Shown here: positions 18,171-22,916 of the stretch, in pieces | How the letters are laid out: each line of letters begins with the position of its first letter | How positions within the stretch are numbered: position 1 is the stretch's first letter | Origin: Clostridia bacterium | GTDB taxonomy: Bacteria > Bacillota > Clostridia > Oscillospirales > SIG627 | Direction: 5' to 3' | NCBI GenBank assembly: GCA_017440805.1 | Contig: JAFSGN010000008.1 | Coordinates: 1-64,000, forward strand | Length of the DNA: 64,000 bases | Notes under the pieces: generated by a model | Told to the model about the DNA's origin: nothing | Databases searched by the model: none | The model's input: the letters and a program-made list of their open reading frames with translations, nothing else | Translations under genes and position numbers: made by a program

Positions 18171-19070
18171 TTACTCAAATACCTTTTGCATTGCCTTCTT
18201 GATAAAAGCTCTTTTAGGCTTCCAAAAACTATCTTGATACTTTTCCCATTTGCCAGCAAATTCTTTGTATATAGGATCACCAAACAAATCGTGCATAGTG
18301 ATAAGCTGTGAAATATGGAGCTTGTGATAAAATGGACTGCATATGCGTTTCCCATTGTCATATTTGCTCCAATATTTCGTGTCAAAATCGGGTAGCTTTC
18401 GCTTTAAGGTATCAAGAGTTTTCTGCAATATGATAGCTGCTTCTTCATCTCTGAAATATTTACAATAGTCATACATTCCCCAAAGTGAAAAAATCCATCC
18501 ATTCAGAATCACCGGATTATCGGTATCTTCATAAAAAATCACATTCTCGCCGTTATATTCTGTTGTACCGCCTTCGCTGATCGGCTTAAGCATAAACTCT
18601 TTTGCTTTAGCTGCTGCATCAGCAAATCTTTTGTCACCTGTTACGATTGCTGCCCGGACAAGCATTGAAATACCTTCGCCCTGCGCCATAGATGAGTACG
18701 GAGCATCGGGTTTAGCATACGCAAATGTTACCCAACCTCCATCTTCCTGCTGATTTTCTACTGCCCAATTAGCACAAGAGATCAATTTGTTTTTGAAAAT
18801 CTCGTTATTGGTTGTCAATAAAAGATCATAAGCAGCCAATCCATACTGAAAAACACCTATGGAAAAGTATATTTCTTCTCCTGTGTCAACGTGATACTTA
18901 GGCACAAGGATGTTCGGATCATCCTTTGTAACTTTCTCAGTCAAATCATTATAATAACCTGCAATCTCGGTCTTGGAATAACAAGTTCCAACACCTTGAT
19001 TAACGTGAGAAATACTTTTCCCGGTCATCATTTTATACCACTTTTTGATCTTATATATTGATATGCCCAT
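18171..19070 (-). CDS. D-glucuronyl C5-epimerase family protein
   Basis: 299 residues of an alpha/alpha-barrel. The segments FSIGVFQYGLAAYDLL, WAVENQQEDGGW, MAQGEGISMLVRA and NGWIFSLWGMYDY match the catalytic C-terminal domain of heparosan/heparan glucuronyl C5-epimerases, which convert glucuronate to iduronate within a polymer or lipid-linked glycan. No signal peptide is evident, so it probably acts on the cytoplasmic side on lipid-linked repeat units. ugd in the same operon supplies the UDP-glucuronate. It lies directly after the truncated glycosyltransferase. Confidence 0.82.
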   Translation of the reverse strand: MGISIYKIKKWYKMMTGKSISHVNQGVGTCYSKTEIAGYYNDLTEKVTKDDPNILVPKYHVDTGEEIYFSIGVFQYGLAAYDLLLTTNNEIFKNKLISCANWAVENQQEDGGWVTFAYAKPDAPYSSMAQGEGISMLVRAAIVTGDKRFADAAAKAKEFMLKPISEGGTTEYNGENVIFYEDTDNPVILNGWIFSLWGMYDYCKYFRDEEAAIILQKTLDTLKRKLPDFDTKYWSKYDNGKRICSPFYHKLHISQLITMHDLFGDPIYKEFAGKWEKYQDSFWKPKRAFIKKAMQKVFE

Positions 19071-19072
19071 TA

Positions 19073-19612
19073 CTAATCGCCCTCTATCTGCTCAATCAAA
19101 ATCTGAACAGCCTTATCAATTTTATATTTATCGGCTTCTATTAAACAAAGCCGTTTTTTACATAGTAACAACGTAGGATCTTCTGCCGTTGCTTTCAAGA
19201 TGCCTGCAAGTGCAAGCTGATCTCTTGTAGAATAAACAAGCCCAACATTCTCATTAACAAGTTCTGCGTTGTACTTCCAGTCAGAAGCAATAACTGGAAC
19301 TCCAGCAGAGTAAGCGTCTATCAATGTCCCGGCAAATCCCTCGCCTTCATAATATGTTGGGAACAGTAAGGCAAAGTATTCCTTCAAAACATCTACACTC
19401 TTGTCAAACGGAACCAATCCACCATACCGAATATATGGTGGAAATACCTTCTGCAACGAATCGAACCACTCCGTTTGCGCTCCGTCCACTTGTCCGTAAA
19501 TATCTAACGAAAATGCTTGAAATCCTAAAGCTGTATTTACCGACACAACAGCATTGACAGCATCTTCAATTCCTTTTTCACGCATAACACGAGAAAATGT
19601 ACAGAGCTTCAA
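19073..19612 (-). pseudogene. C-terminal half of a GT4 glycosyltransferase, 5'-truncated at a poly-G tract
   Basis: 179 residues corresponding to the donor-binding half of a GT4 enzyme. LCTFSRVMREKGIEDA, SLDIYGQVDGAQTEWF and TYYEGEGFAGTLIDAYSAGVPVI (partial motifs) align with residues from about 170 onward of the gene immediately upstream. The acceptor-binding N-terminal half is missing. The only near-upstream start is TTG at 19612. The homologous reading frame continues back only to the G8 tract (19628-19635), where it ends. It may be dead, or be expressed as a fusion when the tract length changes by one G. Confidence 0.7.
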
Positions 19613-20676
19613 AGGATAGAGGTTATACCCCCCCCGAATTTTTCGGTCATAATTTGAATTGCTGATTCGGGGATATAATCCTTTGCTTTACGGACACAGT
19701 TTTCTTTCATATTAAGCAGAACATTTGGTTTTTGAGCAACTTCGAATAAGGCTCTCTCAAACTGATCTGCATCATCAAAGTCATAACCAATGCCAGTTAT
19801 ACCCTCATCAATAACATCTGAATAGCTCTCCCATTTTGCTGATATTACGGGGATACCTGCTGCATACGCATCTATAATCGTTCCTGGGATTCCTTCTGTA
19901 TAAAAGTGTGTTGGAAAGAGCAACGCAAAATAATTTTGCAATACTTCTACGCTACGATTAGCATCAACACAGCCACAATATCGAACATAATCCGGGAATT
20001 GTCTTTTTATAATCTCAAACCATTCTTTTTGTGCAGTATCTACTTGACCATAAATATCTAACGAATATGCTATGTAACCCAACCTGTCATTTACATTCTT
20101 TATGATGTTTACAGCCGTTTCAATGCCTTTTTCTTTCATCACACGGGAAAAGGTACATAGCTTATACGGCACACCGGACGGATATACAAGTTCATTTTCA
20201 GAAAGAACAGTCAGTTTTTTGCAATTCGGCATAACATATACGTTTTCAAACTCTTGTGCTTCTAATGCGCTTCTCATGGTATTTGTTTCAACGTATATGC
20301 CATCGAATTTTCTCAATATTCTTGAAAGACGTTTACGCTGCATCAAAAATTGAGGAAGCCATCCACCGATTACAACATAGTGTATTTTTCTTTTTTTGAA
20401 TATTCGTTTAATAAAAGCCAGAAGCGGAGCAAATACTCTCAAACCATTTTGAGCAGGAAAAATAAGTACATTCGTGCTGTTTTTCAAGGCACAGAACACT
20501 TGAAATGGCGCTTTCAAAAGTGTTTTCCAGCCACCATGCGTATCAATTTTCATCACTTGGTCTTGTCCAAGCTGATTTTGCAATTCTTCAGTAATGATTT
20601 TTGTTTTTACAGTCTGACCGTTCAGAAGATTGGCACCTTCTCCAAAGTGTCCTAATATACTTACTTTCACTCGCAC
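19609..20676 (-). CDS. GT4 family glycosyltransferase
   Basis: 355 residues. The N-terminal Rossmann domain starts VSILGHFGEGANLLNGQT. The C-terminal domain has CTFSRVMKEKGIETAV, LDIYGQVD and the donor-site pattern HFYTEGIPGTIIDAYAAGIPVI. The start is GTG, preceded by GGGGTG, 5 bases after the stop of the GT2 gene. It transfers a sugar from a nucleotide donor to the lipid-linked glycan. The last nine residues are encoded from and beyond a run of eight G; the natural end is probably around MTEK, and the terminal GGGITSIL follows from the tract. It overlaps the next frame by 4 bases. Confidence 0.85.
   Translation of the reverse strand: MRVKVSILGHFGEGANLLNGQTVKTKIITEELQNQLGQDQVMKIDTHGGWKTLLKAPFQVFCALKNSTNVLIFPAQNGLRVFAPLLAFIKRIFKKRKIHYVVIGGWLPQFLMQRKRLSRILRKFDGIYVETNTMRSALEAQEFENVYVMPNCKKLTVLSENELVYPSGVPYKLCTFSRVMKEKGIETAVNIIKNVNDRLGYIAYSLDIYGQVDTAQKEWFEIIKRQFPDYVRYCGCVDANRSVEVLQNYFALLFPTHFYTEGIPGTIIDAYAAGIPVISAKWESYSDVIDEGITGIGYDFDDADQFERALFEVAQKPNVLLNMKENCVRKAKDYIPESAIQIMTEKFGGGITSIL
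19628..19635 (-). repeat. Poly-G tract (G8) inside the GT4 gene end
   Basis: Eight consecutive G on the coding strand, nine codons before the stop. With nine G the frame would read on through YNLYPLKLC into the truncated second GT4, giving a fused protein of about 534 residues. Confidence 0.9.
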
Positions 20677-21442: not shown

Positions 21443-21560
21443 TCCATCTTCCTACCACTTCATCAAATTTATGAAACCAATGCTCTGCTACATGAATTGT
21501 CGTGGGGCATATAACCAATGCTTCTTTTACAATATTTCCAGTAAACAAGGAAGTTAAGAA
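21435..21560 (-). pseudogene. Orphan 3' fragment of an unknown gene after the G12 tract
   Basis: On the minus strand an open stretch of 41 codons reads ...VKEALVICPTTIHVAEHW...GRWNE and stops at TGA (21437-21435), overlapping the GT2 start as real operon neighbours do. It has no start codon with a ribosome site. In its frame a TAA stands directly against the poly-G tract. Its composition looks protein-like and I interpret it as the C-terminus of a deleted cluster gene. Family not recognised. Confidence 0.45.
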
Positions 21561-22012
21561 TTACCCCCCCCCCCCGTCTTTTCAAGTATTCTACAGGGAA
21601 CACCTACAGCAGTCGCATTGTCCGGTATATCTTTGTTGACCAATGTACAAGCACCAATCACCGCATTTTCACCAATCGTCACTCCGTTTTTTCCGGATAT
21701 AACATTCGCTCTCATGCCGATGTATGCGCCCTTCTTAACCGTAATAGGTGTATGCTGTTGATTACGTCCGTGACAAGCGAAGAAAACCCCATATGAAATG
21801 ATGCAGTCATCTTCCACCGTGAACATATGTGGTTCAAGATCGTCAAGGTAGCATCTCATCCCAATGAACACATTTTTTCCGATGTTATATCCACATAAGC
21901 GATAGAAGAAAATCCTCCAACCATTCAGCACCATATGCGGAATAATTTTTGCACTCATCCATTTGCGGAAGAAAGCCTTTATTTTTTGCCAAATTGTTTT
22001 TTTCATAACCAT
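21554..22012 (-). CDS. Hexapeptide-repeat acyltransferase
   Basis: 152 residues of a left-handed beta-helix O-acetyltransferase. YIGMRANVISGKNGVTIGENAVIGA shows the isoleucine-patch hexapeptide repeats (shown in part), and DDCIISYGVFFACHG carries the likely catalytic His. It would acetylate a sugar of the repeat unit or free donor. The normal family C-terminus (NKDIPDNATAVGVPCRILEK) is followed by TGGGGNS, encoded by a run of twelve G. GGGAGG lies 6 bases before the ATG used. It lies 18 bp downstream of the initiating transferase. Confidence 0.87.
   Translation of the reverse strand: MVMKKTIWQKIKAFFRKWMSAKIIPHMVLNGWRIFFYRLCGYNIGKNVFIGMRCYLDDLEPHMFTVEDDCIISYGVFFACHGRNQQHTPITVKKGAYIGMRANVISGKNGVTIGENAVIGACTLVNKDIPDNATAVGVPCRILEKTGGGGNS
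21564..21575 (-). repeat. Poly-G tract (G12) at the acetyltransferase end
   Basis: Twelve consecutive G on the coding strand, three codons before the stop. Loss of one G would extend the acetyltransferase by about 34 unrelated residues; gain of one would stop it at once. Confidence 0.9.
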
Positions 22013-22029: not shown

Positions 22030-22725
22030 TTATACTCCTAATAAATCTCTTGCTTCCTCTTGCTTCTTTTCGTAGGTTTCTCGATCCACCTTACCTTCCA
22101 TCATCAGCCAATCGCCAAAGTCCATGTCCGACACGGTTCCCTCCCGGACCGTATCGCTTCTTTTGAGAACCTTTCCGACTGTCTGGAAGATAATCTTCAT
22201 ATCGCCCATGAAAGTTATTCCGCTGTCTATGTACATAATATCGTACTCAAATTTCTGTTCCCAGGTTATGTTGTTGCGTCCGTTCACCTGTGCAAGTCCG
22301 GTCAGCCCCGGGCGGACATCGTGCCGCCTTCTTTGTTCATCTGTCATAAATGTCATATCCCTGACAAGTTGCGGTCTGGGTCCGACGATTGAGATATCAC
22401 CAACGGCTATGTTAACCAGTGACGGCAACTCATCAAGAGAGGTACTGCGGATAAAAGCACCATATCTGCCAAGTCTCTGCTCATCCGGCAGAAGATTGCC
22501 GTCTTTATCTTTTGCATTGCTCATGGTACGGAATTTAATCAGATTGAATATCTTTTCCTGCCCGTTTTTATCTTTCTTGCCGGGTCTGGGCTGAAGAAAA
22601 AACGGATTTCCTTTCATGGCAATTGCACCCACAATAATCAGGAGCAGTAAAACCGGCGACAGAACAACCAGCGCTGTCACAGATAATACAACATCCAGAA
22701 ATCGCTTGAAAAATTTTATATACAT
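22030..22725 (-). CDS. Initiating sugar-phosphate transferase (WcaJ/PglC type)
   Basis: 231 residues from the ATG of MYIKFFKRF, chosen because GAGGAG lies 7 bases upstream. One N-terminal membrane (re-entrant) helix (LDVVLSVTALVVLSPVLLL) is followed by the catalytic region FFLQPRPGKKDK, NLIKFRTM, ISIVGPRPQL and RPGLTGLAQVNGRN. It is the short monotopic form that transfers a sugar-1-phosphate from a UDP-sugar to undecaprenyl phosphate, starting repeat-unit synthesis. As first gene of the operon it follows a structured leader and a consensus promoter. The sugar cannot be named with certainty. Confidence 0.9.
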   Translation of the reverse strand: MYIKFFKRFLDVVLSVTALVVLSPVLLLLIIVGAIAMKGNPFFLQPRPGKKDKNGQEKIFNLIKFRTMSNAKDKDGNLLPDEQRLGRYGAFIRSTSLDELPSLVNIAVGDISIVGPRPQLVRDMTFMTDEQRRRHDVRPGLTGLAQVNGRNNITWEQKFEYDIMYIDSGITFMGDMKIIFQTVGKVLKRSDTVREGTVSDMDFGDWLMMEGKVDRETYEKKQEEARDLLGV

Positions 22726-22748
22726 TGTGTACTCCTCATTCAAAATAC

Positions 22749-22887: not shown

Positions 22888-22916
22888 ATTATATCACAAT
22901 AATACTTGTTTGTCAA
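22888..22916 (-). promoter_or_regulatory. Consensus promoter of the polysaccharide operon
   Basis: Minus-strand TTGACA (22911-22916), exactly 17 bp, TATAAT (22888-22893): a perfect sigma-A consensus at the head of the 15-kb gene cluster. Confidence 0.85.

Follow-up and report, generated by a model that had tools for sequence, protein, structure and literature searches.

A minus-strand operon of exopolysaccharide or surface-glycan type, as judged by gene content and Pfam matches, contained a GT4 glycosyltransferase gene with a run of eight G's close to its stop codon and, beyond the run, a coding segment resembling half of a second GT4. The question raised by this locus was whether the run is a slippage site that switches the enzyme between a short form and a fused long form. 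The operon lay in a 64-kb stretch of DNA, here called the window. The genome, from an uncultured gut Clostridia bacterium, was apparently a draft metagenome-type assembly of 1,579,753 bases in 22 contigs. The features of the operon were as follows.

22888..22916, minus strand: predicted sigma-70-like operon promoter, TTGACA-17-TATAAT (12/12 match), upstream of the first gene
22030..22743, minus strand: bacterial sugar transferase (Pfam PF02397), the first gene of the operon
21554..22012, minus strand: hexapeptide-repeat acetyltransferase, 152 aa (Pfam Hexapep)
21564..21575, minus strand: G12 tract at the 3' end of the hexapeptide acetyltransferase gene
21443..21563, minus strand: spacer of about 110-120 nt from the G12 tract to the GT2 gene, absent in the related locus L066
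20681..21442, minus strand: GT2 glycosyltransferase (Pfam PF00535)
19609..20676, minus strand: GT4a, a full GT4 glycosyltransferase, 355 aa at the assembled G8 (Pfam PF13692/PF00534)
19622..19650, minus strand: weak promoter-like site, ATGACC-17-TATAAC (boxes 4/6 and 5/6), with G8 in its spacer
19628..19635, minus strand: G8 tract at the 3' end of GT4a, the proposed slippage site
19073..19627, minus strand: C2, C-terminal (donor-sugar) domain of a second GT4 (Pfam PF13692/PF00534)
18171..19070, minus strand: protein like the D-glucuronyl C5-epimerase C-terminus (Pfam PF06662), directly downstream of C2

Three further genes belonged to the operon: one had no Pfam match, one weakly resembled an O-antigen ligase/polymerase gene, and one was pyruvyl-transferase-like.

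The original prediction had placed a G8 run at 19628-19635 and, directly behind it in the next frame, the C-terminal half of a further GT4, and had proposed that one extra G would fuse the two enzymes. Each of these points was borne out. The run was read as C8 on the plus strand, corresponding to G8 on the coding strand, and the C2 frame was open for 184 codons. At the assembled length the GT4a frame ended as ...TEKFGGGITSIL*, out of frame with C2, and the neighbouring frame, ...GGYNLYPLKLCTFSRVM..., ran open past the tract. The computed products were 350 aa at G7, 355 aa at G8, 534 aa at G9, and 351 aa at G10, so that a one-base change in either direction altered the product (350 / 355 / 534 aa). 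Tract lengths of G6 and G12 at this site were also computed to give the GT4a-C2 fusion.

C2 lacked an N-terminal half and consisted of the 184 open codons that were brought into frame with GT4a at G9. When it was aligned with 33 homologues, all 41 near-invariant columns of the C-terminal domain were retained (41/41), which identifies it as a C-terminal domain of the GT4 (GT-B) type and argues against old decay. C2 was 49% identical to C1, the C-terminal domain of GT4a itself, and its nearest homologues were those of L068/L070, at 62-64%. GT4a was 73% identical to its counterpart in L059. Both of its halves were nearest to L059 and L060 (78% and 72% for the N-terminal half, and 69% for the C-terminal half), and a mosaic GT4a carrying a resident N-terminal half was rejected on this ground.

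The gene order in L066 was sugar transferase, acetyltransferase, GT2, GT4, and C5-epimerase, with a single intact GT4 and no tract. The C domain of this GT4 was 57% identical to C2 versus 46% to C1. Since the syntenic L066 has a homologue of the second GT4 that is intact and free of a tract, the present arrangement appears to have arisen by loss of the N-terminal half. C2 would then most simply be the remainder of an older GT4 whose N-terminal half was lost. No N-terminal half of the second GT4 was found elsewhere in the window genome, where the search returned only two matches. Intact second GT4 genes without a tract were present in L066, L068, and L070, which indicates that the fusion is derived, not conserved. 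The original prediction had named a tract-free relative whose second GT4 is intact as a sign of simple decay or assembly error. L066 fits this description in part, and the two-form reading was kept, with partial support.

These comparisons also bear on a rival view, in which GT4a took the place of the first half of an older GT4, leaving C2 as a non-functional remnant of recent date, and in which G8 at the joint is incidental. The single tract-free GT4 of L066, where the gene order is the same, with its greater similarity to C2, and the missing N-terminal half both favour this view, and the joint between GT4a and C2 might be a recent deletion scar. The retention of every near-invariant residue in C2 speaks against it.

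The rarity of the tract was assessed against the whole genome. Only two runs of at least eight G's were found in the 1,579,753 bases, the G8 at 19628-19635 and the G12 at 21564-21575, together with four runs of G7. The length of G8 alone was near the genome background, one such run being about what the G7 count leads one to expect, which again favours an incidental tract. G8 also lies at the short end of the range for fast-switching tracts. The G12 was far above background, and its presence nearby counts against a remnant. The two tracts were 1.9 kb apart in one operon and on one strand, each at the very end of its gene. By simple arithmetic (4 kb/1.58 Mb), the chance of two tracts falling this close if placed randomly was about 0.25%. 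What is unusual is that a single glycan operon carries both runs on its coding strand, less than 2 kb apart and each at a gene end.

The G12 tract had not been part of the original prediction. Lengths of 9-15 were computed to change only the tail of the acetyltransferase, giving 149-153 aa or 180-181 aa. The acetyltransferase was 87% identical to its L066 homologue, which had no tract. One frame of the spacer between G12 and the GT2 gene read ...KEALVICPTTIHVAEHWFHKFDEVVGRWNE*, with its stop overlapping the GT2 start, and a lost gene may have left the spacer as its tail. The 43-aa remnant 3' of G12 gave no match in the related loci searched.

Two further genomes of the order to which the window genome belongs had intact, in-frame genes with the arrangement GT4, G10, and GT4 C-domain. 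The protein of L133, from a rabbit metagenome genome (G814 in the order-wide search), was 587 aa and comprised an N domain, a C domain, the G10 tract read in frame as SGGGYNIYKL, and a second C domain. The protein of L206 was 567 aa, with an equal design and G10 in frame. Pfam matched the N-domain once and the C-domain twice in each. The GT4 subfamilies of both differed from that of GT4a. In all three cases the alignment of C1 ended no more than one residue from the tract, and the start of C2 preceded its homologous domain by 4-11 residues. The window tract, at most one residue from the C-terminus of C1 and followed by 184 codons, has the placement of C-terminal phase variation with gene merger. 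The identity between C1 and C2 was 49% in the window and 54% in each of L133 and L206. Truncation at the domain boundary three times suggests selection for a folded second domain. No further GT4 fusions were found among the other poly-G tracts examined. The two-form prediction was thus partly supported, through the intact fused-type reading frames of L133 and L206. The junction fell at the same domain boundary in three independent cases, of which two are in frame; this speaks against a remnant, which is considered rather unlikely.

The flanks of the tract were compared as well. The L133 tract agreed with the window flank over TATAAC-TCTA. The tract together with TATAACNTCTA was considered as a shared mobile site and rejected; among 391 genomes of the class it occurred in the window only, and it was absent from viral contigs.

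An error of assembly or basecalling, by which the true tract length or the order of fragments would differ, was also weighed. Homopolymers are error-prone, and the assembly is apparently of the draft metagenome type with 22 contigs. The genes around the tract were intact, however, and the equal architecture was recovered in two other assemblies (L133 and L206). A poly-G tract in a glycosyltransferase gene was present in a complete genome as well, that of the cultured Ruminococcus bicirculans 80/3, where a G9 (L070:6309-6317) put a GT2-like gene out of frame. This G9, the longest G run of that genome, lay just downstream of a homologous GT2-GT4 pair. R. bicirculans, whose order in GTDB is Oscillospirales, has order-level relatives in common with the window genome, which is thereby assigned to that order. 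Such an error is regarded as very improbable.

The reading favoured here, with a probability of roughly 0.6, is that G8 is a coding poly-G contingency site at the C-terminus of GT4a, at which slippage toggles the addition of C2. Replication slippage would alter the number of G's in the GT4a tract. At the assembled G8, and at G7 or G10, translation would stop within a few codons and yield an ordinary two-domain enzyme of 350-355 aa. At G9 (or at 6 or 12), it would read through into the intact GT-B C-terminal domain C2 and yield an N-C1-C2 protein of about 534 aa. Every third tract length would therefore append C2, with translation of the long form presumed, and most other lengths would end the protein at once, so that the product would not be simply on or off. 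The addition of C2 would likely confer an altered or additional sugar-donor activity or change the activity of GT4a. Cells within a population would then differ in their glycan. The nearby G12 would vary the C-terminal tail of the acetyltransferase. The G9 of R. bicirculans counts in favour of this reading. The out-of-frame assembled state, the shortness of G8, and the tract-free relatives count against it, and we know of no N-C1-C2 protein of this kind that is active.

Poly-G runs in glycan genes recurred through the order and in the single congener compared. This congener (G001, 2.5 Mb) had only one run of at least nine G's. The run was located 3'-terminally in a gene for a PglD-like hexapeptide acyltransferase, which directly followed a sugar transferase gene, as in the window. 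A second tract, a G8 in frame inside a GT14 gene, was located 1.25 kb further on. Tracts in glycan genes of the congener and of the order are a further point against C2 as a remnant.

When 394 genomes of the order were searched for the pattern C-G9+-N0-3-TA, 244 occurrences were found in 93 genomes, versus 30 for the reversed pattern, counts that include some overlapping matches. The poly-G runs therefore have an orientation. The bias for C before and TA after the runs held at both coding and promoter sites. Such flanks were favoured by the search pattern itself; where the sets were unbiased, about 60% of the runs had C before them and 26-37% had TA after them.

Nearly all of the scanned coding tracts with a Pfam match were in surface-glycan or DNA-methylation genes. 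The glycosyltransferase and capsule classes were GT2, GT4, GT8, GT14, and capsule synthesis, and the acyl classes were acyltransferase-3 (nine), MBOAT, and hexapeptide transferases. Other tract-bearing classes were sugar-transfer ATP-grasp proteins, epimerases, a sugar C-methyltransferase, a cytidylyltransferase, a formyltransferase, and DNA methylases. Of 40 coding tracts, 26 were in frame and 14 were out of frame, and eight lay in the last 15% of the frame. Across the order, the runs thus fell in the classic contingency classes, which are promoter spacers and the genes of glycosyltransferases, acyltransferases, enzymes of sugar-nucleotide metabolism, and DNA methylases. The gene with the window G8, a GT4 in a glycan operon, is of a class typical of such loci.

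Several individual loci were observed in the course of the search. A glycan locus of about 14 kb (L225 and L226, G747 contig C2) contained at least seven poly-G tracts, and three tandem acyltransferase-3 paralogues in it had tracts near their starts in differing frames. In L236 and L238 (G743), a repeated CGCAAATTCTGC-Gn-TACAGTTATAGGCT unit was found at gene 3' ends, with copies of 10, 10, and 11 G's in one genome. L118 (G061) and L228 (G195), from two families, had the common flank GC-Gn-TAAAACCTACTTCT at the poly-G and a possible hairpin beyond it. Three poly-G runs lay within 2.2 kb in L205 (G778/G660 contig C5), and the genes downstream of them encoded secreted proteins, paralogous to one another, whose signal peptides were of the KSKNTKRALLASVLSMMLC type. 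Poly-G runs inside the DNA methylase genes of L135, L227, and L131 suggest phase-variable methylation.

Some runs in the order were spacers of promoters with clear TTGACA and TATAAT boxes. Runs of 9-11 G's were observed in strong TTGACA/TATAAT spacers in L214-L219 (G255), L210, L240, L241, L250, and L262, and such spacer runs numbered up to six per genome of the order. Phase variation by poly-G promoter spacers is known, for example in Neisseria porA, and C-Gn-TATAAT spacers of this type are likewise common in the order of the window genome. The window tract could accordingly be the spacer of an internal promoter, ATGACC-17-TATAAC, that tunes transcription of the downstream genes from the C5-epimerase on. 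The many runs between clear boxes in the order, and the 4/6 and 5/6 boxes spaced by 17 bp at the G8 site, are consistent with this. Unlike the porA tract, however, the window tract lies inside a coding frame and its promoter match is weak, particularly in the -35 box. About 550 nt separate the tract from the next start codon, and the equivalents in L133 and L206 are in frame and have no good -35 box. The promoter reading is further weakened because TATAA also follows tracts in plainly coding, in-frame genes (SDR in L132, epimerases in L212, and GT2 in L213). The proposal that every C-Gn-TATAA tract is a promoter was rejected for the same reason. Tuning of transcription from the G8 site is considered improbable, and the coding switch remains the preferred reading.

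Poly-G variation of surface glycans is best known from Campylobacter, Helicobacter, and Neisseria. The closest system is the C-terminal phase variation of Helicobacter canadensis, in which G10-14 tracts at gene 3' ends vary in length at the read level; the genes concerned include an rfbB epimerase, a formyltransferase, and a reductase, and in HCAN_0660/0661 a length change could join two coding sequences (PMC2823697). As in H. canadensis, the window tract is at a gene 3' end and one frame merges into the next coding segment, so the mechanism class is known, whereas the lineage and the form, addition of a GT4 domain, differ. H. canadensis is an epsilonproteobacterium and its merged partners are hypothetical proteins, whereas the window GT4 would receive its donor domain a second time. 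Variation was seen in reads of H. canadensis, whereas the window tract is known from a single assembly.

In Campylobacter jejuni, poly-G contingency loci of capsule and LOS place repeat tracts in surface-glycan genes, several per genome (PMC8437040). The window genome resembles C. jejuni in having several simple-sequence-repeat tracts in such genes. The C. jejuni loci mostly switch genes on or off by frameshift, whereas the window enzyme is predicted to be complete in either state, with a domain added in one. The pili of Bifidobacterium breve, a Gram-positive gut commensal, are described as a surface structure under an ON/OFF switch by replication slippage (PMC9187656). B. breve is an actinobacterium with an expression switch of pilus genes, in contrast to the domain addition proposed here.

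No poly-G switches in Ruminococcaceae, Faecalibacterium, or Clostridia were found in the open-access full-text literature. This agrees, within that scope, with the original prediction that Clostridia offer no established case. A 2025 review mentions Clostridia only for switches of Clostridioides difficile such as invertible promoters (PMC11868660). Because the search covered open-access papers, novelty in Clostridia is provisional. The finding is judged to be known poly-G C-terminal phase variation extended to Clostridia, with a recurrent GT4 domain-addition design. A wider proposal is put forward only tentatively: the order may use poly-G slippage as a domain-addition switch that changes the sugar added, with at least three origins and within a large, undescribed contingency repertoire.

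If true, poly-G variation of surface glycans would be common throughout a major order of gut Clostridia, which would matter for phage sensitivity, for recognition by the immune system, and for strain diversity among commensals. The question is directly testable in cultured species such as Ruminococcus bicirculans. Recurrent domain addition would, if true, be a new way to vary enzyme specificity.
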